Positions 40,025 to 54,145 of a DNA stretch of 64,000 nucleotides are shown here, one piece after another. The translations under genes and the position numbers were made by a program. How positions within the stretch are numbered: the stretch's first letter is position 1; the number at the start of each line of letters is the position of its first letter. The notes below the pieces were generated by a model, which saw nothing but the letters and a program-made list of their open reading frames with translations, had not been told where the DNA came from and searched no databases. Source of the DNA: Lentisphaeria bacterium (GTDB taxonomy: Bacteria; Verrucomicrobiota; Lentisphaeria; Victivallales; Victivallaceae); contig JAFVRD010000021.1 in the NCBI GenBank assembly GCA_017504435.1, forward strand, positions 1 to 64,000, read 5' to 3'.

Positions 40025-40876
40025 TTATTGCGAAACCAGCTTGAGTTTGAAAGATGTTCCGCCGTTGGGCGGTCTGGGAATATAACTCAAGTTTTGCAAC
40101 ATCAGTTCTACCGAGGCATTGACCGCCTGATTCGGACTTCGTTTGATGATCTGTTTCCGGGTCACCTGTCCGCCGGATGCGACGGTCAGTTCCACGATGA
40201 CTGCGGTTTCTTCCGAGACCAGAACACCGGGGGGGCGTTCCCATTTTTCAAAGATGAATTTCTGCACATCCATCCAGAATTTTTCTTCATCGGCGGTCGC
40301 ACCTCCTGCCGGAGTACGGTTGTCGGCAGGGCCGAGTTTCTGTCCCCGGTCACGGCTGCCGATGGGAACGTTGCGGTTGAAATTCTGTCCTCCGGCATTG
40401 CGCGGCGCGGCATTGGGATCGAAATTATCCCAGCTGCTGTCGTGAAATACCTCGGCCGGTTTATTTTTCAGCTTTTGCCGGGGGGCGGCTTGGGCTTTCG
40501 GCTTGACTTTGGTCTTTGGTCTGGGCTTGGTTTTGGGTTTAACCTTTTGCTTGGGCTTGACTTTCGGTTTGGGCTTGGCTTTCGGTTTTGGCTTGGCTTT
40601 CGGTTTTGGCTTGGCTTTCGGTTTTGGCTTGGGTGCTGCCGGCGGGGTCGATGCCGCCGGAGGAGCAGGGGTGGGACGGGTATGTTCCGGCATGCCGACT
40701 TCCGGCGCGTGAGATGGCTTGATGCCGCCGAGTTTGACCCGGAACGGGATATCCTTTTTAGCCGCCTGCTTATGCAGCAGATAATCAAATCCCAGAGGTC
40801 CGAGGATCAAAGCACAATGCAGGGCAAAGATCACGCTCAGCAAAATAAATCTGGCACTGTTCCGGGAAGGATTCAT
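40025..40876 (-). CDS. tonB: TonB-like energy-transducing protein
   Basis: 283 aa. N-terminal TM segment (FILLSVIFALHCALILGPLGF, residues 10-30), then a Pro/Lys-rich spacer from about 65 to 145 built of PKPKA/KPKPK units, a linker, and a C-terminal TonB-type domain (residues 190-283: KFIFEKWERPPGVL, VIVELTVASGGQVTRKQIIKRSPNQAVNASVELMLQNL). Links ExbB/ExbD proton-motive energy to outer-membrane receptors. Overlaps exbD by 4 bp. The C-terminal domain is divergent and could equally be TolA-like; the exbB-exbD neighbours favour a TonB/TolA role either way. Confidence 0.82.
   Translation of the reverse strand: MNPSRNSARFILLSVIFALHCALILGPLGFDYLLHKQAAKKDIPFRVKLGGIKPSHAPEVGMPEHTRPTPAPPAASTPPAAPKPKPKAKPKPKAKPKPKAKPKPKVKPKQKVKPKTKPRPKTKVKPKAQAAPRQKLKNKPAEVFHDSSWDNFDPNAAPRNAGGQNFNRNVPIGSRDRGQKLGPADNRTPAGGATADEEKFWMDVQKFIFEKWERPPGVLVSEETAVIVELTVASGGQVTRKQIIKRSPNQAVNASVELMLQNLSYIPRPPNGGTSFKLKLVSQ
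40501..40632. repeat. tandem repeat encoding the Pro-Lys spacer of TonB
   Basis: Degenerate units of GGCTTGGCTTTCGGTTTT (18 bp), nearly perfect three times in 40571-40632 and decayed further left. Such repeats change copy number easily and would alter the periplasmic reach of the spacer. Confidence 0.75.
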
Positions 40877-41289
40877 TTCGGCTCAGACTCCGCCTGAGTT
40901 ACCAAAGTGGCGTCATTGAATCCGCAGTTGCGGACCAATGCAAATAATTCGATGACCTGTTCATAGGCGCACTTGCCGTCTCCGCGTACCAGCAGCTGCG
41001 GTTTGGGAGTTCGTCCGGCGAGGGCGCGTAATTTTTCACTCAAAGCGGTTTTGCTGACGGCTTCTTTGTCCAAAAAATATGTGCCGTCTTTGCTCAAAGT
41101 GACACTGATGAAATTTTCAGTTGGCAATTCATTGGCATTCATTTCCGGAGTGTTGACTCCGGTGCCGTATTCCATCAGCGGCATGGTGATCATGAATGCG
41201 ATCAGCAATAAAAACGTCAGATCCAGCAGCGGGGTGACATTGATCTGGTCTATGGCTGCCATCGGAGTGCGGTTGCGGCGTCGTGACAT
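40873..41289 (-). CDS. exbD: biopolymer transport protein ExbD/TolR
   Basis: 138 aa from ATG 41289 (a G-rich Shine-Dalgarno just upstream); the longer frame overlaps exbB without a site. Cytoplasmic arginine-rich start MSRRRNRTPMAA, then the ExbD/TolR TM with its essential Asp (INVTPLLDLTFLLLIAFMITMP), and a periplasmic domain with LRALAGRTPKPQLLVRGDGKCAYEQVIELFALVRNCG. Forms the proton channel with ExbB. Lies 13 bp after exbB and overlaps tonB by 4 bp. Confidence 0.92.
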   Translation of the reverse strand: MSRRRNRTPMAAIDQINVTPLLDLTFLLLIAFMITMPLMEYGTGVNTPEMNANELPTENFISVTLSKDGTYFLDKEAVSKTALSEKLRALAGRTPKPQLLVRGDGKCAYEQVIELFALVRNCGFNDATLVTQAESEPK

Positions 41290-41302
41290 ATCGCACCCCC
41301 TT

Positions 41303-42070
41303 TTATAAATTACCGTTGTCCGGTTGTTTTTTCTCCAATTCCAACTGGGAGAGTTTGACACATACCATGAATTGTTCAGTGAAGTTATCCATCATCACGG
41401 TCAATTGCCGGATCGTACCGGTCAGCAGGTTGTAACCCACCAGTGAAGGTATTGCCACGATCAAACCTGCGACTGTGGTCAGCAATGCTCCCGCCACCCC
41501 CGGAGCGAGAGCAGTGAAGTCAGATTTACCTGCGGCGGCGATTCCGCAGAATGCCATCATTACTCCCCAGACCGTACCAAAAAGACCGCAGAACGGACTT
41601 AAACTTACCAATGTTGCCAGTACCCCGATGCGGGTCTCCAATTCTTTGAGCTGGGATGACACTTCCCGTTCCAGTACGGCTTCAACAGCATTATATTGTG
41701 CTTCCGAAAGTTTACACGGCTGAGGAATGCTGCTTCTGATCCCGGCTGCGGCACCGGCTTCATAAAAATCCAGCAGTTTTTCAATTCCCGCCCGGTAGAT
41801 CGCAGCGGTCGGACCATTGTTTTCTTCGGCTTCCCGGAGCAGCGGCCGGGCAAGCATATTGATTTCGCCGTTATTCTGAAAAATGTTTATGAACCGTGCC
41901 GCCAGTCGTTTGGCGCGGTAAAGCGACCACGCTTTATCCAACATTACTGTCCAGGTCAGAATACTGCCGATAAGCAGCAGCAGCACGATACTTTTGCCGA
42001 CTGAATCACTGTGCTGATAAGCGTAATAAACTCCGGGAGTTTGGACTGTGGCAAGAATTGATCCCAACAT
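41303..42070 (-). CDS. exbB: MotA/TolQ/ExbB proton channel protein
   Basis: 255 aa from ATG 42070, with GGAG 8 bases upstream; upstream in-frame sequence antisense to the ROK gene is discarded. First TM near 25-45 (SIVLLLLIGSILTWTVMLDKAWSLYRAKR), then a cytoplasmic part, and the family core LSPFCGLFGTVWGVMMAFCGIAAAG near 165 plus GVAGALLTTVAGLIVAIPSLVGYNLL near 195. First gene of exbB-exbD-tonB. Promoter overlaps that of the divergent ROK gene. Confidence 0.93.
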   Translation of the reverse strand: MLGSILATVQTPGVYYAYQHSDSVGKSIVLLLLIGSILTWTVMLDKAWSLYRAKRLAARFINIFQNNGEINMLARPLLREAEENNGPTAAIYRAGIEKLLDFYEAGAAAGIRSSIPQPCKLSEAQYNAVEAVLEREVSSQLKELETRIGVLATLVSLSPFCGLFGTVWGVMMAFCGIAAAGKSDFTALAPGVAGALLTTVAGLIVAIPSLVGYNLLTGTIRQLTVMMDNFTEQFMVCVKLSQLELEKKQPDNGNL

Positions 42071-47554: not shown

Positions 47555-47583
47555 AATATAACTCTTGACAGAGAATTTTTCAA
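47555..47583 (-). promoter_or_regulatory. glnS promoter
   Basis: Minus strand TTGAAA (47578-47583), 17-bp spacer, TATATT (47555-47560). Confidence 0.7.
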
Positions 47584-47592
47584 CGCAAAGAC

Positions 47593-47621
47593 TTGACTAT
47601 TGACAAAAGATGAGTTATTTT
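47593..47621 (+). promoter_or_regulatory. promoter of the MotA-like/coiled-coil/kinase operon
   Basis: TTGACT (47593-47598), 17-bp spacer, TATTTT (47616-47621). A TTGACA six bases inside the spacer gives an alternative register. Confidence 0.6.
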
Positions 47622-47685
47622 ACCTTCACGTACAGAAAATATCATCTGAAAACAACAACTGTCAACCCATAAGGAACCGCTATCT

Positions 47686-48240
47686 ATGAAACCCAACCGC
47701 TCCAAACAGATAATCATTTTTACAATTCTGCTTATCGCAGGTGCCGCATTGACAGCCTGGATGCTTTATGCATTCAATAATATACCGGGATTCAAAGCTC
47801 TTTTCTCTGCGGCGGATACCCCGGTTCTCGGCAATGTCGGTCCGGAATCAGAGGTGACTCTGGCACAGAAAGCCGATTTCACTGCCAAAGTTTCCATGTG
47901 GATTTTTATTTTCATCACGTTGCTGCAGCTGGCGGCTCTCGGAGTCGGTTATGCAGTGGTCAACTCCATTGCCTCCAGTGATGACAATGTCAAATTGAAA
48001 CTCCGCAGTCTGGATAACGCCGAAGTGTTTTTTGATGTGCCGCTGTATTTCGGACTTTTCGGTACGGTTTCCGCGTTTCTGGTCATGACCTTCTCGCCCC
48101 AGAGCAGCCGTCTGATCGCTTACAGTTCAACATTGATCGGAATTATTTTCAGTCTGTTCCTGCGACTGATCCTGCAGTACCCTCTGCGCAAGAAACTTGT
48201 CCGTCAGGACGCTTTGGAAAATGAGGGGAACAGCAAGTGA
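47686..48240 (+). CDS. four-TM membrane protein with MotA/TolQ/ExbB-like core
   Basis: 184 aa. Hydrophobic segments at about 8-27, 68-92, 118-138 and 142-162. The third and fourth contain FDVPLYFGLFGTVSAFLVMTF and LIAYSSTLIGIIFSLFLRLIL, whose GLFGTV is identical to the ExbB core motif in this window (42070 gene). The protein is much shorter and lacks the usual large cytoplasmic insert, so it is a distant or minimal relative at best. Basic C-terminus RKKLVRQDALENEGNSK. Overlaps the coiled-coil gene by 4 bp. It has no assigned family as far as I can tell; a channel-like role is inference. Confidence 0.65.
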   Translation: MKPNRSKQIIIFTILLIAGAALTAWMLYAFNNIPGFKALFSAADTPVLGNVGPESEVTLAQKADFTAKVSMWIFIFITLLQLAALGVGYAVVNSIASSDDNVKLKLRSLDNAEVFFDVPLYFGLFGTVSAFLVMTFSPQSSRLIAYSSTLIGIIFSLFLRLILQYPLRKKLVRQDALENEGNSK

Positions 48241-50015
48241 ATAGAGCCATTCTCATCGTCATCTGTGACTTTCTGGTGTCGGCGATGCTGACCATGATGA
48301 CCGGCATGGTCCCCGGACATTCCGGCGGTACCGGCGTAGGTCTCGATGAAAATACCACCAAAGTCCTGCTCAGCGAACTTGACCGTCAGAACGCGGAATT
48401 GGAAAAATTGCGCGCCAAACTGCGGGAAACCGTTGCCAAAATGGGCAGTCTCACCCCGGAACAGCAATCTGAATTACAGCGTTTGACCGCCAGACTTGCC
48501 GAAAATAAAATGCAGCAGAGCAAACTGCGCGCCTCTCTTGCCGCCACTCCGGAAAATACCGGTGAATTGGATGCCAAAGAATTGCAGCGCCGTTTGGAAG
48601 CTGAGCAGAAAGCCAAGCTGGAACTGGAAATCAAATTGAAAGACAGCCAAAGCGATGTGCGGCAGGGACAGCGGGAGCTTGAACACAGCCGGAACCGTCT
48701 TGCCGATACCACCGGACAGCTGCGGGAAGCCAAACGGGATCTTGCCGTCCAGCGCAGAGAGTTGTCACGTACCCGGGAAACGCTTGCCAAAACCAGCGAA
48801 ACCCTGGTCGATGTGACCCGCGAAAACGCTAACGTCCGTGCTGATCTGGCGCGTACCGAAGAAAAATTGGAATCCGAACAGCGGGAAACACGCCGGCAGA
48901 CCCGGGAATTAAGCGGTGCCAAAGAGGAATTGCGCCGTCTGAATACGACTTTAGTCCGCAGCCGCGGAGAAAATACCGCCCTGCAGAATAAAAATGCCAA
49001 CCTGACCGGACAACTGGCTGTCCGGGAAAAAAATTACGCCGCGTTGCAAGATCAGCTTGCCAAAGCTGAACGGGCTCTTGCCGTTTTGCAGCTGGAAAAA
49101 ACCGAAGCGGTCGTCCAACGTGATGAAATGCAGAAAACAGTCAAAAATGTCGTCACCGAACTGGCAGAAAAAGAACGCGCTCTGGAACAGACCACCAAAA
49201 GCAATTTCCAGATATCTGCCAAATTGGAAGCCGCCCGGGAAATGCTTGAACAATCCCGGAAAAACGTCAATAACGTTATCAAATGTTACGGTTCTGCCGT
49301 GGTGCAGGTCGATTGTGCCGTTACTGAAGAATCCATTTTCGGCGGACGTACCGGCAAAAGCACCAGTTATTATCCGCTGGTGGATTTCAACGGCAAGATC
49401 ATGCTGGTCGGTCTGACCAACCGTTTCGCCGGAGACGAAAAAACTGCTTTGAGTTTCAAAAATATCACCGGAATCGACTTTTCGGTACTTCTGCCGCAAG
49501 GCAATGTCCGGACCAAACTGCCGGCGGCAATGATCGTATCTGCGTTGGAAATGCGGATCGCCGGATTCAATTACAAAGACAAAAACAGTACGCCTTTGAA
49601 ACTGCTCACCGCCGAAGAGTTGCTGAAACGCGGTCTGGATGGTCTCTACCTTTTCAAACCGACCAGTTTCGGCGGTTCCAGTGCCAAACTTGACGGCAGA
49701 GTATCTCTGGCTTTGACCAATGGCAGCCGTTCTCTGTTTATCCGCAATGCCGGACGTGCCAACAATGAATTGAAATCTGCCCCGGGAGACTTCATTCTTT
49801 CATCCGATGGTGAATTTGTCGGCATCGTCATCGCCAATGATACAGTTGACAATGTACGCGGATCCAGAGTGTTTCTGTTTGAATCAGCCGCTTTCTGGAA
49901 CAATCCGGTCATCGTGCCGCTGAACAAACTCCCCGGAGAGAAATATTTCTCCCGCTATGCCGGAGCGATGCAGATGATCCGCAGGAAAGTCCGTCCCGGA
50001 TATGATAACCGCTGA
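48237..50015 (+). CDS. membrane-anchored coiled-coil protein with trypsin-like-fold-like C-terminus
   Basis: 592 aa. N-terminal TM (AILIVICDFLVSAMLTMMTGM) contains an Asp within the helix, as in ExbD/MotB. Residues about 38-345 are an almost unbroken heptad coiled coil rich in E/L/R/K (for example ELEKLRAKLRETVAKMG, RQTRELSGAKEELRRL). Residues 350-592 form a beta-rich domain: CYGSAVVQVDCAVTEESIFGG, LFIRNAG, and PGDFILSSDGEFVGIVIAND, which lines up with the GDSGGP..G.VVGI end of trypsin-like domains but without the catalytic Ser. Overlaps both neighbours (4 and 14 bp). Function unknown; could be the stator/transducer partner of the preceding protein. Confidence 0.7.
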   Translation: MNRAILIVICDFLVSAMLTMMTGMVPGHSGGTGVGLDENTTKVLLSELDRQNAELEKLRAKLRETVAKMGSLTPEQQSELQRLTARLAENKMQQSKLRASLAATPENTGELDAKELQRRLEAEQKAKLELEIKLKDSQSDVRQGQRELEHSRNRLADTTGQLREAKRDLAVQRRELSRTRETLAKTSETLVDVTRENANVRADLARTEEKLESEQRETRRQTRELSGAKEELRRLNTTLVRSRGENTALQNKNANLTGQLAVREKNYAALQDQLAKAERALAVLQLEKTEAVVQRDEMQKTVKNVVTELAEKERALEQTTKSNFQISAKLEAAREMLEQSRKNVNNVIKCYGSAVVQVDCAVTEESIFGGRTGKSTSYYPLVDFNGKIMLVGLTNRFAGDEKTALSFKNITGIDFSVLLPQGNVRTKLPAAMIVSALEMRIAGFNYKDKNSTPLKLLTAEELLKRGLDGLYLFKPTSFGGSSAKLDGRVSLALTNGSRSLFIRNAGRANNELKSAPGDFILSSDGEFVGIVIANDTVDNVRGSRVFLFESAAFWNNPVIVPLNKLPGEKYFSRYAGAMQMIRRKVRPGYDNR

Positions 50016-52173
50016 AAATCCTGATTTCACGGTCCCTGTTGCATCAACCGGTGACGGGGACATACGGGAAATAACCAATGTCCCGGCAGATGATGCCGCA
50101 TTCAAAGATCTGAAACTGCTCGGCATGGGCGGTATGGGTATCGTCTATGAGGCAGAAGATCCGGCATTGGAGCGCAAAGTTGCGTTGAAAATGCTCCGTT
50201 CTCCGTACCGGAATGACGGCGATCTGGTCAAAAAATTCATCAATGAAGCCCGGATCACCGCCAAAATCGACCATCCGAATATCATCGCCGTCCATCATCT
50301 CGGCATGAATAAAGATTGCGGAGCGTATTTCAGCATGCGCCGGATCAAAGGCGAAACTTTGCAGAGCATCATCCGCAAACTGCGCAGTAGAGACCCGGAA
50401 TATATACGCAAATATCCCCTCCGGAGATTGCTGGATATTTTTATTGCCGGGTGCAACGGTGTTGATGCTGCCCATTTGCAGAATATTCTGCACTGTGACC
50501 TCAAACCGTCCAACATCATGGTCGGTGACCGCGGTGAAGTCTGGGTGCTGGATTGGGGCGTTGCCCGCACTGCAGATTCTCCGGCTCCAGATAACCCGAA
50601 CATGATAGAAGGTACAGTGGCATTCATGGCTCCGGAATTGCTCCGGGGCACGCTTGCCGCCCCCGATAAAAAAACCGACATCTACTCACTCGGCGTACTG
50701 CTTTACTGCATTTTGACCTGGCAGGATGCGCCTTATGACCTGAATCTGGAACATCAGGAACTGGTCAACCGGGTCGCTTCCGGAAAATACCGTCCCTTGA
50801 ATAACCCTGATAAATCCCGCAAACTGCCGGTGGAACTTGTTGCAATATGCAAAAAAGCAATGACCGCCGACCGTGAACGTCGTTATGATACCATCCCGGC
50901 TCTGCGTGCCGATATTTATCATTATCTGGACAACAAACCGGTCGGTGCTTACTCACCCAATCCGCTTTACCGTTTTTTTAAACTCTGCTGCCGCAGACCA
51001 TTGATACCGGTAACGGCGACCGTGGCACTGTTGACTATGGCGGCATATCATGCCGGAACCGATTTTATACAGTATGCAGAAAACCGTTCGCTGACCGGTC
51101 AGGCATTCGCACACACCCAAATCGCCAATGATCACATCCGTACCGGTATGCACCGCTGGCAGCAGCTCACCTCTCCGGACAGCAGCAGCTCCCCGCTTGA
51201 TACAGCTCTTACCGAACATGAGATGAAATTGAGTACCAACTATGCTGTGCTGGAAACATTTTTTGCCTTTGATGCGATCTCCGGAACCTCTGAAAATATC
51301 AGTTATTCGTTTGCAGCTTCTTACGGAAAAAATATCCTCAAACGGCTGCTCCGGCTGCAATGTATCACCTCTGCCCCGGACATTCTGGAACAGATCGAAA
51401 AACGCTGGCCGCAGTTTTTTCAAATCTGCATGAAAAATGATCCCGAATTGCAGAAACTTGTTGACCGGATCAAAAAAAATTGCGGAACAGTGACTTTTTC
51501 CGGAATAAATACTGACACCCCGCATAATTGCACTGTCATCCGTCCGGACGGGAGTTCAAAATCCATTTCGTTCAAAAACAATTTCACTCTTGAACTTCCG
51601 GCAGGAAACAATCGCTTCTTCATCGCCGCGCCGGGGCAAAAAACATTTTCTGCGCTGCTGCAGATCACTCCCGGGATGAATCTGCGTTTTTCCGCAGCGG
51701 ATTTCCCGCCGCCGCCCGGATTCATATTGATTCCGGATGATCACTGGTTCATTACGGTTCCCGGCTTGGGGCAACGGCTGAAACGCCTCTCCAAATACAT
51801 GATCAGTGCCGCGGAACTTACCGGTGGAGAAGTAATGAATACGGCTCCGGAATGTCAGGGGCATGCCGTTATCTCACTTCGCGGCAAAGCACTGCTGCCG
51901 CTTGCCGATGCAGAACTTTTCTGTCGTGCCGCCTCCAAAAAATACGGTTCGACAGTCCGCTTCCCTAATGAATTGGAACTGCAGAAATCCCTGTCCGCAG
52001 GCGAATTGCCCGGTAAAAGTTTCTATGGGGCGGAACTGCCGTCGGCAGATATTCCGCTTTTTGTAAAAACTCTCAACGGAAAAACGGCATTATTCAATGC
52101 CCAAACGATGAAAATTGAACCATTCACCCCCGGGCGTGCTGCCGCTTTGCGCCCGGTAATAGAATTAAAATAA
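50002..52173 (+). CDS. membrane-anchored Ser/Thr protein kinase with PEGA- and sulfatase-modifying-factor-like tail
   Basis: 723 aa. Kinase domain about 33-310: LLGMGGMGIVYEAEDP (Gly-rich loop), VALKML (catalytic Lys), HCDLKPSNIM (HRD variant), VLDWGVAR (DWG in place of DFG), GTVAFMAPEL (APE), KTDIYSLGVLLYCIL. Active residues are kept. One TM near 333-352. A helical stretch follows, then a PEGA-like beta module near 494-560 (GTVTFSG, LELPAGNNRFFI), and a tail near 565-723 with ADAELFCRAASKKYGSTVRFPNELELQ, like the W-DA-AFC--L----G---RLPTE-EWE motif of formylglycine-generating-type domains, though degenerate. Starts inside the end of the coiled-coil gene. The 4-TM and coiled-coil proteins are plausible substrates or sensors. 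Confidence 0.8.
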   Translation: MITAENPDFTVPVASTGDGDIREITNVPADDAAFKDLKLLGMGGMGIVYEAEDPALERKVALKMLRSPYRNDGDLVKKFINEARITAKIDHPNIIAVHHLGMNKDCGAYFSMRRIKGETLQSIIRKLRSRDPEYIRKYPLRRLLDIFIAGCNGVDAAHLQNILHCDLKPSNIMVGDRGEVWVLDWGVARTADSPAPDNPNMIEGTVAFMAPELLRGTLAAPDKKTDIYSLGVLLYCILTWQDAPYDLNLEHQELVNRVASGKYRPLNNPDKSRKLPVELVAICKKAMTADRERRYDTIPALRADIYHYLDNKPVGAYSPNPLYRFFKLCCRRPLIPVTATVALLTMAAYHAGTDFIQYAENRSLTGQAFAHTQIANDHIRTGMHRWQQLTSPDSSSSPLDTALTEHEMKLSTNYAVLETFFAFDAISGTSENISYSFAASYGKNILKRLLRLQCITSAPDILEQIEKRWPQFFQICMKNDPELQKLVDRIKKNCGTVTFSGINTDTPHNCTVIRPDGSSKSISFKNNFTLELPAGNNRFFIAAPGQKTFSALLQITPGMNLRFSAADFPPPPGFILIPDDHWFITVPGLGQRLKRLSKYMISAAELTGGEVMNTAPECQGHAVISLRGKALLPLADAELFCRAASKKYGSTVRFPNELELQKSLSAGELPGKSFYGAELPSADIPLFVKTLNGKTALFNAQTMKIEPFTPGRAAALRPVIELK

Positions 52174-52186
52174 CCAAACTATTGCC

Positions 52187-54145
52187 ATGATCGATTTCAA
52201 AAATCTTTCCAAAAGTTATTCCGGCGAGTATATCCTCAAAGATGTGAACTGCCGGATAAATACCGGCGAAAAAGTCGGTGTCGTCGGCCCCAACGGAGCC
52301 GGTAAAAGTACCCTGTTCGGCATGATAACCGGCGAAGTGATGCCGGATGCCGGAGCGATCGTAATCCCCAAAGAATCCCGGTTGGGGATCATGAGACAGC
52401 ACATTCCGGATACGGAACTTGACCGGGAACTGCTGGAATTTGTCGCGGATGCCATACCGGAGTTACGGAAATATTCTGCAGAACTGGAAATCCTTGAAGA
52501 AAAGATGAGTTCGTGCGACAATGATGATGAACTGGAAATAATGCTTAAACGGCACGGTTTTCTGCAAAACACCATTGAGCATCTGGGCGCATATCATCTG
52601 GATGTGGAGGCCAAACAGGCATTGACCAGTCTGGGTTTTCCGGTGGAGCGTCTCAATGACAAGCTCAACAGTTTTTCCGGCGGCTGGCAGATGCGTGCGG
52701 CATTGGCAAGGGTGCTGATCTCCCGTCCGGACATATTACTGCTGGACGAACCGTCCAACTATCTGGATATTCCGGCGGTGGAATGGCTGTGCCGTTTTCT
52801 TGCCAACTATCCGGGCACACTGCTGCTGATCTCCCATGACCGCTTTCTGTTGCGGAAACTGACAGCGGTAACTCTGGAAGTCAACCGGGGAACCGTGACC
52901 CGTTACGCCGGAAATTATGACTTCTACCGGGTGGAAAGAGAACAGCGGCGGATCGCACTGGAGGCCGCCAAACGCAACGCCGATCACAAAAAAGAACAGC
53001 TGGAACGGATGATCGACCGTTTCCGTGCCAAAAGCACCAAAGCCGCCGCCGCCAAAAGTGCCCAGAAAAAACTCGACCGTATCGAAGATGTCAAACTTGC
53101 CGATTCATTGGATTATCATGGGGTCATCCGGTTTCCCGCACCGCCGCCGGCAGGGGCGGAAGCGGCAAGATTTGAACATGTGGATTTCGGTTACACAAAA
53201 GAAAAACTGCTGTTCAAAGATGTCGATATGAGTATTGATACCGGAGACAAATTGGCGATCATCGGTTACAACGGCATGGGCAAAACTACTTTGCTCAAAC
53301 TTCTGGCAGGAATATTGAAGCCGCTTTCCGGGCGGGTGGTGCCGGGGCATCACATCGTGATCGGTTATCAGGCGCAGGAATTTTCAGAATTGCTCAATGA
53401 TCAATTGTCGGTATATGATGCGGTGAGACAGGCATTGCCTCCGGATGCCTCAACTGCGAATATCGCCAATGTGCTGGGTTCATTCGGATTTTCCGGAGAT
53501 GCGATGAAAAAACCTTGCGGAGTGCTTTCCGGCGGTGAAAAGATCCGGCTGCAAATGGCACGGATATTTGTCAATCCTCCCAATTTGCTCATTCTTGACG
53601 AACCGACCACTCACTTGGATGTATCGGCGCGGGAACTGCTGCAGGAAGCGTTGAAAAATTATGCCGGAACTGTGGCAATGGTCAGTCATGATATTGATTT
53701 TGTCCGCAATGTGGCAGAAACGATTTGGGAAGTGTCTCCCGCCGGAGTTACCAAATATTTCGGCAATTACGATTACTATCTGGAAAAATCCGTCGCCAGC
53801 GGTGACCCGGAAATTTCCGCCGCCGATCCGCTGAAAAGTTCTGCCGGAACCGCCAGAGAGCGCCGGCGGCAGCGGGCGCAGGCACGCAACGCGATCGCCG
53901 GAAATCTGCGCCAGGCTAAAAAAGATGTGGAATCTTTGGAAAAACTGCTTGATGAACAATCTTCCCGCAAAGCGGTACTGGTCGCCAAACTTGCCAGCGG
54001 CGAAAGGGTGGATTTTGCCAAACTCAACACGGAACTGGCAGCACTGGATAAAGAGATCGCCGCCACCGAGGAAAAATGGGAGATCCGGGCGATGGAATTG
54101 GAAGCATTACGGCAGGAAAACGACCGTATCAACAGTGATAATTAA
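52187..54145 (+). CDS. ABC-F family ATPase (Uup/YheS-like)
   Basis: 652 aa, soluble, no TM. Two ABC domains: first Walker A GPNGAGKSTL near 36, LSGG-type SFSGGWQMRAALARVL near 165, LLDEPSNYLD; the second has GYNGMGKTTLLKLLAG near 360, LSGGEKIRLQMARIF near 445, LILDEPTTHLD and catalytic-His switch MVSHD. The linker between them is helical and the C-terminal 110 residues are coiled coil, as in Uup. Family members act on the ribosome E-site. Starts 13 bp after the kinase gene; co-transcription possible. Confidence 0.92.
   Translation: MIDFKNLSKSYSGEYILKDVNCRINTGEKVGVVGPNGAGKSTLFGMITGEVMPDAGAIVIPKESRLGIMRQHIPDTELDRELLEFVADAIPELRKYSAELEILEEKMSSCDNDDELEIMLKRHGFLQNTIEHLGAYHLDVEAKQALTSLGFPVERLNDKLNSFSGGWQMRAALARVLISRPDILLLDEPSNYLDIPAVEWLCRFLANYPGTLLLISHDRFLLRKLTAVTLEVNRGTVTRYAGNYDFYRVEREQRRIALEAAKRNADHKKEQLERMIDRFRAKSTKAAAAKSAQKKLDRIEDVKLADSLDYHGVIRFPAPPPAGAEAARFEHVDFGYTKEKLLFKDVDMSIDTGDKLAIIGYNGMGKTTLLKLLAGILKPLSGRVVPGHHIVIGYQAQEFSELLNDQLSVYDAVRQALPPDASTANIANVLGSFGFSGDAMKKPCGVLSGGEKIRLQMARIFVNPPNLLILDEPTTHLDVSARELLQEALKNYAGTVAMVSHDIDFVRNVAETIWEVSPAGVTKYFGNYDYYLEKSVASGDPEISAADPLKSSAGTARERRRQRAQARNAIAGNLRQAKKDVESLEKLLDEQSSRKAVLVAKLASGERVDFAKLNTELAALDKEIAATEEKWEIRAMELEALRQENDRINSDN

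Follow-up and report, generated by a model that had tools for sequence, protein, structure and literature searches.

A conserved gene pair of the Verrucomicrobiota that may encode an ion-driven envelope motor, with a neighbouring Ser/Thr kinase in Victivallales

The window analysed here is a stretch of 64,000 nucleotides (contig JAFVRD010000021.1, positions 1 to 64,000 of the forward strand) of a Lentisphaeria bacterium whose genome is available as a 2.26-Mb draft (GCA_017504435.1). Three consecutive + strand ORFs of 184, 592 and 723 aa, designated A, B and K, overlap by 4 bp (A/B) and 14 bp (B/K), as had been reported in a preliminary description made from the sequence alone. The 4-bp overlap in the window coordinates suggests that A and B are translationally coupled. 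The features of the locus are:

47686..48240, + strand: gene A, a four-TM MotA/TolQ/ExbB-like protein of 184 aa with no family model (ORF, AF2, invariant columns)
48052..48177, + strand: residues 123-164 of A, the TM3-turn-TM4 core GLFGTVSAFLV...AYSSTLIGIIFS, proposed as a pore-lining hairpin (conservation)
48064..48066, + strand: codon of A Thr127, counterpart of ExbB T148 and TolQ T145 (alignment; PMC8928145)
48130..48132, + strand: codon of A Thr149, counterpart of ExbB T181 and TolQ T178 (alignment; PMC8928145)
48237..50015, + strand: gene B, 592 aa, an N-terminal TM with an Asp, a putative periplasmic coiled coil and an HtrA-like end domain (ORF, alignment A2)
48267..48269, + strand: codon of B Asp11, mid-TM, consensus MN[RK]xILIVICDFLV (identical in every sequence compared)
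48348..49256, + strand: coiled coil of B, residues ~38-340 (heptad pattern, 37% charged residues)
49242..50012, + strand: C-terminal domain of B, residues 336-592, predicted HtrA/DegP-like fold (AF2, Foldseek, VIA, alignment A3)
50002..52173, + strand: gene K, a transmembrane Ser/Thr protein kinase, optional partner (PF00069, alignment A5)
52187..54145, + strand: ABC-F ATPase gene, the next after the cluster in the genus (conserved neighbour)

The ABC-F ATPase gene probably lies outside the A-B mechanism; it follows the cluster in most members of the genus, and in genomes G023 and G030 it is found directly 3' of B, with no K between them. On the other side, a short intergenic region (47583-47686) with promoter-like matches on both strands is shared with a divergent glutaminyl-tRNA synthetase gene. 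A few kb further upstream, canonical ExbB (PF01618) and ExbD (PF02472) genes are present on the - strand (40873-42070), separate from A-B.

The AF2 prediction for A consisted of four helices (residues 5-32, 53-97, 118-133 and 138-182) with a mean pLDDT of 88.5, in a membrane layout of TM1 (~9-31), TM2 (~70-92), a short cytoplasmic loop (93-117), TM3 (118-135) and TM4 (142-164). As the N- and C-termini are both basic, both ends of the protein were placed in the cytoplasm. No large cytoplasmic domain is present, and the short loop contains Ser97 and Ser98. Conservation was highest in TM3 and TM4, with mean top-residue frequencies of 0.77 and 0.73, respectively, compared to 0.36-0.54 for TM1, TM2 and their flanking loops. 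Tyr121, Gly123, Ala145, Tyr146, Ser148 and Gly152 were invariant, Thr127 of the GLFGTV motif was Thr in 55/59 sequences and Ser in 4/59, and Thr149 of AYSSTLIG was Thr in 53/59 and Asn in 6/59. In many families (L123, L125, L130-L140) the A core forms the end of a ~560-600-aa protein with ~400 extra N-terminal residues, which matched no Pfam name and probably constitute a periplasmic helical domain with additional TM helices.

The likeness of A to ExbB proposed in the preliminary description, a four-TM layout and a common GLFGTV, was confirmed by the AF2 helices and by the presence of the same string in the canonical ExbB of the window. Thr127 and Thr149 of A align with T148 and T181 of ExbB and with T145 and T178 of TolQ, which in the latter form a conserved ring proposed to stabilise the protonated D23 of TolR (review, PMC8928145). 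No PF01618 match was obtained for A, for six divergent members or among the matches listed for 37 members of the A1 alignment. The canonical ExbB of the window scored E=6e-30 with this model, and a PF01618 search of the whole genome returned two canonical copies, this one and another on contig C43, A not being among them. Pfam, NCBIfam, PADLOC and PHROG offered no family model for A, and the weak Pfam names that it attracted (DUF443, Wzy_C_2 and others) were below the cut-off, scattered and discarded. Sequence searches of the PDB chains with alignments A1, A3 and A4 returned no relatives.

When A was compared by hhalign with MotA/ExbB profiles, the probability was only 3-18%, yet the Thr/Thr register was reached unprompted with a score of 27.3, above the highest score from 200 segment-wise shuffles (25.5) and from 150 column shuffles (23.0); decoys, drawn from a small number of unrelated membrane families, scored at most 16.6. 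The profile relationship expected earlier was recovered as a score above shuffles, not as a significant match. The four best PDB matches of the predicted structure in Foldseek were TolQ, PomA, TolQ and TolQ, with E about 1, and about 20 of the 50 matches listed by VIA were subunits of 5:2 motors, ZorA included, several of them with Z values of 7.0-7.7 that were tied with those of generic helical bundles. A therefore looks like a protein that works as a MotA/ExbB subunit does, yet it is not classed as a member of that family, because the statistical link is weak.

The best conserved part of B is its N-terminal 25 residues, and Asp11, within the N-terminal TM, was never replaced among the sequences compared. 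A three-residue cytoplasmic end precedes this TM and an uncharged-to-acidic segment follows it, so the rest of the protein would be located in the periplasm. This rest begins with a heptad-patterned coiled coil of ~300 residues, which must bend or fold back, since 300 straight residues would measure ~45 nm and exceed the usual periplasm. Full-length relatives of B range from 466 to 756 aa, and its closest named relatives belong to Lentisphaerae/Lentisphaeria metagenome genomes, several of them from sheep, deer and yak gut.

The last 257 residues of B were predicted by AF2 (pLDDT 92.2) to adopt the trypsin-type double-barrel fold of HtrA/DegP, with a best Foldseek E of 5.8e-7 and a VIA Z of 14.2 to DegP (rmsd 3.1 over 183 residues). 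In alignment A3, with the register against GNSGGP read by eye, the position of the catalytic Ser is occupied by Pro, Val, Arg or others, followed by an invariant Gly-Asp. The lack of this Ser means that the domain is most likely catalytically dead. The intramembrane Asp, the long coiled coil and the trypsin-like end with no active Ser had all been recognised in the preliminary description, and all three held. At the family level, B matched nothing at E<=1, the names drawn from Pfam, NCBIfam and PADLOC were coiled-coil models and were set aside, and no ExbD/MotB match appeared among the matches listed for 36 B members. When the B TM was compared with ExbD by hhalign, the coiled coil was aligned instead, leaving the TM with no profile alignment. 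Neither an ExbD/TolR fold nor an OmpA-like peptidoglycan-binding domain is present in B, whose end domain is HtrA-like.

In a protein search of 60 relatives, 39 had A and 40 had B, with nearly the same set of genomes in both cases, and profile A1, derived from A, detected relatives in further families within the phylum. A broader profile of A (A4) and an independent profile of the B end domain (A3) were then applied to a sample of 388 Verrucomicrobiota genomes: A4 found A in 126/388 and A3 found the B end domain in 126/388, with 124 genomes in common. The genomes with A only were G119 and G137 (weak, E 0.008), and those with B only were G022 and G171, the latter with a weak A fragment by profile A1. 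Distance matrices of A and B were correlated with r=0.88, compared to a maximum of 0.24 in 1000 permutations. In the loci examined, A and B were adjacent except at contig ends and in locus L134 of genome G364, where they are 70 kb apart; in G358 they lie on different contigs. As both genes are retained even where unlinked, the association is more than adjacency, and their conservation across a phylum implies that the arrangement is not due to chance. In L134, A is located upstream of an LpxA-type acyltransferase-like gene (assigned by eye) and of pdxA (Pfam PdxA).

The pair was single-copy in nearly all carriers, and A was present in 55/58 genomes sampled from the window's family and in 53/61 from a second family. 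Its flanks vary from one family to another, with many housekeeping genes among them; in the window the neighbours are the genes for GlnRS, the kinase and ABC-F. No plasmid match for A was found. Pfam, NCBIfam, PHROG and PADLOC models do not cover the A-B pair beyond the coiled coil of B, and no description of it was found in the literature searched.

The kinase domain of K spans residues 35-295 (PF00069, E=1.6e-35), with the catalytic residues K63, E82, D166, K168, N171 and D184 invariant in alignment A5, and is followed by one weak TM (~333-352). The full kinase and the TM of the preliminary description were therefore present. The PEGA-like part had no Pfam match, and the formylglycine-generating-type (FGE-sulfatase-like) tail was detectable in 11/18 relatives, being degenerate and undetected in the window copy. 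In four loci of the genus (L051, L054, L056 and L060), K is cut to ~540 aa and the FGE-like tail is apparently lost. K adjoins A-B in 26/32 assessable loci of the genus and in 5/8 other loci of the order; it is not beside A-B in G006, G007, G018, G023, G026, G030, G036, G052 and G057, and in no locus examined from outside the order was it found there. Genomes that have no A-B were also seen to carry K-like kinases, whose tails are longer. K is an optional local addition, limited to one order, and what is conserved as a unit is A with B, and not the three genes together as had been suggested.

On balance, A and B probably form a proton- or sodium-driven motor of the 5:2 type, in which a B dimer would combine a TolR-like axle, a TolA-like rod and a binding head. 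The Thr and Asp positions, the conservation pattern, the Foldseek ranking and the tight co-occurrence support this assignment, as does the topology, with basic ends in A and a cytoplasmic end of three residues in B. The hhalign score above shuffles and the earlier prediction of single-chain transducers of a similar kind (PMC12204202), for which a combined axle, rod and head had likewise been proposed, also speak for it. The same evidence upholds the earlier idea of a MotA/ExbB plus MotB/ExbD system, although a significant profile match is missing from it. The assignment is weakened by the lack of a family for A, the low hhalign probability, the Foldseek E of ~1 and the tie with generic bundles in VIA. 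Further points against it are the B TM unaligned to ExbD, the Asn at Thr149 in six sequences and the Ser at Thr127 in four, the lack of a large cytoplasmic domain in A and a coil in B longer than the usual periplasm.

The main rival is a static envelope sensor or scaffold, in which A would anchor B, the head of B would sense misfolded protein or peptide, and the Asp and Thr residues would serve for helix packing or signalling with no ion flow. HtrA/DegS-like folds are known peptide sensors, so the fold of the B head is in its favour, as are the ~400 extra residues before the A core in many members, much of which is probably periplasmic, the kinase neighbour in one order and the weak profile link of A to MotA/ExbB. 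Such a device is nevertheless considered rather unlikely, given the absolute conservation of Asp11 in the middle of the membrane, the polar residues of A in the TolQ/ExbB register and the motor proteins ranked first by Foldseek. An obligate three-part signalling module, with A gated through phosphorylation by K, would account for the overlapping genes, for the frequent position of K next to A-B within the genus and the order and for Ser97/Ser98 in the cytoplasmic loop of A. It was rejected because of the loci without K, in nine named genomes and outside the order, and is judged improbable; the K-like kinases in genomes lacking A-B and the tiny cytoplasmic surface of A and B also count against it.

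The phage role considered in the preliminary description, as a Zorya-like defence motor with a kinase effector, is disfavoured and regarded as very improbable. Kinases are present in some defence systems, a pair of MotA/MotB type that bears a long coiled coil is reminiscent of such a motor, and ZorA was one of many proteins in the VIA list. It was rejected mainly because of the distribution and the neighbours: the pair is single-copy and near-universal in the window's family and frequent in the second, is surrounded by housekeeping genes with no ZorC/D/E, and A gave no plasmid match. A also gave no PADLOC match, B matching coiled-coil models only and K general kinase models only. The architecture argues against it as well, since the Zorya tail is cytoplasmic and part of ZorA, and ZorB binds peptidoglycan (PMC11890865), whereas the coil here is assigned to the periplasm and to B.

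If A and B do work as an ion-driven motor, a B dimer would have its N-terminal helices enclosed by several A subunits, five if the analogy holds. Protons or sodium ions would bind Asp11 of B opposite the rings of Thr127 and Thr149 of A, and their passage would turn or shift the dimer. Beyond the membrane, B would continue into the periplasm as a long coiled-coil rod capped by its presumably inactive HtrA-like head, so that axle, rod and binding head, the TolR- and TolA-like parts, would be joined in one chain. The ligand gripped by the head would probably be a peptide or a protein close to the peptidoglycan or outer membrane, and the pair would thereby supply an envelope process of the Verrucomicrobiota with energy from the inner membrane. 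The transmembrane kinase of Victivallales, which would often be co-transcribed, may tune or read the motor. The chances are about even that A-B represents a phylum-wide, previously undescribed ion-driven envelope motor with a minimal MotA-like ring and with axle, rod and pseudo-protease head in a single chain, serving a housekeeping role in many Verrucomicrobiota lineages and linked to a Ser/Thr kinase in Victivallales.

Ion-driven 5:2 motors are the power source of flagella, of import through the outer membrane and of its stability, of gliding and secretion, and of one defence against phages. A-B, if it is one of them, would be a further housekeeping motor invisible to the usual PF01618/PF02472 searches and would widen that family, would indicate the minimum size of a motor ring, and would provide a transducer made of one chain, with a head derived from a protease. 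With this reading, two conserved hypothetical genes of Verrucomicrobiota acquire a function that can be tested.

Among known systems, TolQ-TolR-TolA and ExbB-ExbD-TonB resemble A-B in pairing a polytopic subunit, in which two polar positions are conserved, with a single-TM partner that has an Asp of the essential type, and in having a rod that spans the periplasm. Unlike TolQ/ExbB, A is shorter, has almost no cytoplasmic domain and does not match PF01618, and in contrast to TolR/TolA, the TolR-like helix, the rod and the HtrA-like end domain are in one chain. MotA/MotB and PomA/PomB share the four-TM topology of the A subunit and the conserved membrane Asp of B, but A has no torque-generating cytoplasmic domain and B no OmpA-like domain. 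With the proteases HtrA, DegP and DegS the resemblance is in the fold of the B end domain, which lacks the catalytic Ser and is carried on a membrane motor-like anchor, not in a protease cage. Zorya ZorA/ZorB (PMC11890865) shares the idea of a 5:2 motor with a long coiled extension, which there is the cytoplasmic tail of ZorA and here would be periplasmic and part of B; ZorB carries a peptidoglycan-binding domain and Zorya has nuclease effectors, whereas the distribution of A-B is housekeeping-like, and ZorA/ZorB models found no match in A-B. Earlier predictions (PMC12204202) include single-chain transducers that carry a transpore Asp and are partnered by TolQ-like proteins. In these TPH-vWA force transducers, as in A-B, one gene beside a TolQ-like gene provides both the Asp transpore helix and the effector domain, with no separate ExbD/TolR, and they were reported in Verrucomicrobia among others. 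A-B differs from them in its single B gene, instead of a heterologous pair, in its long coiled coil and in a head that is most likely a dead HtrA-like domain and not a vWA.
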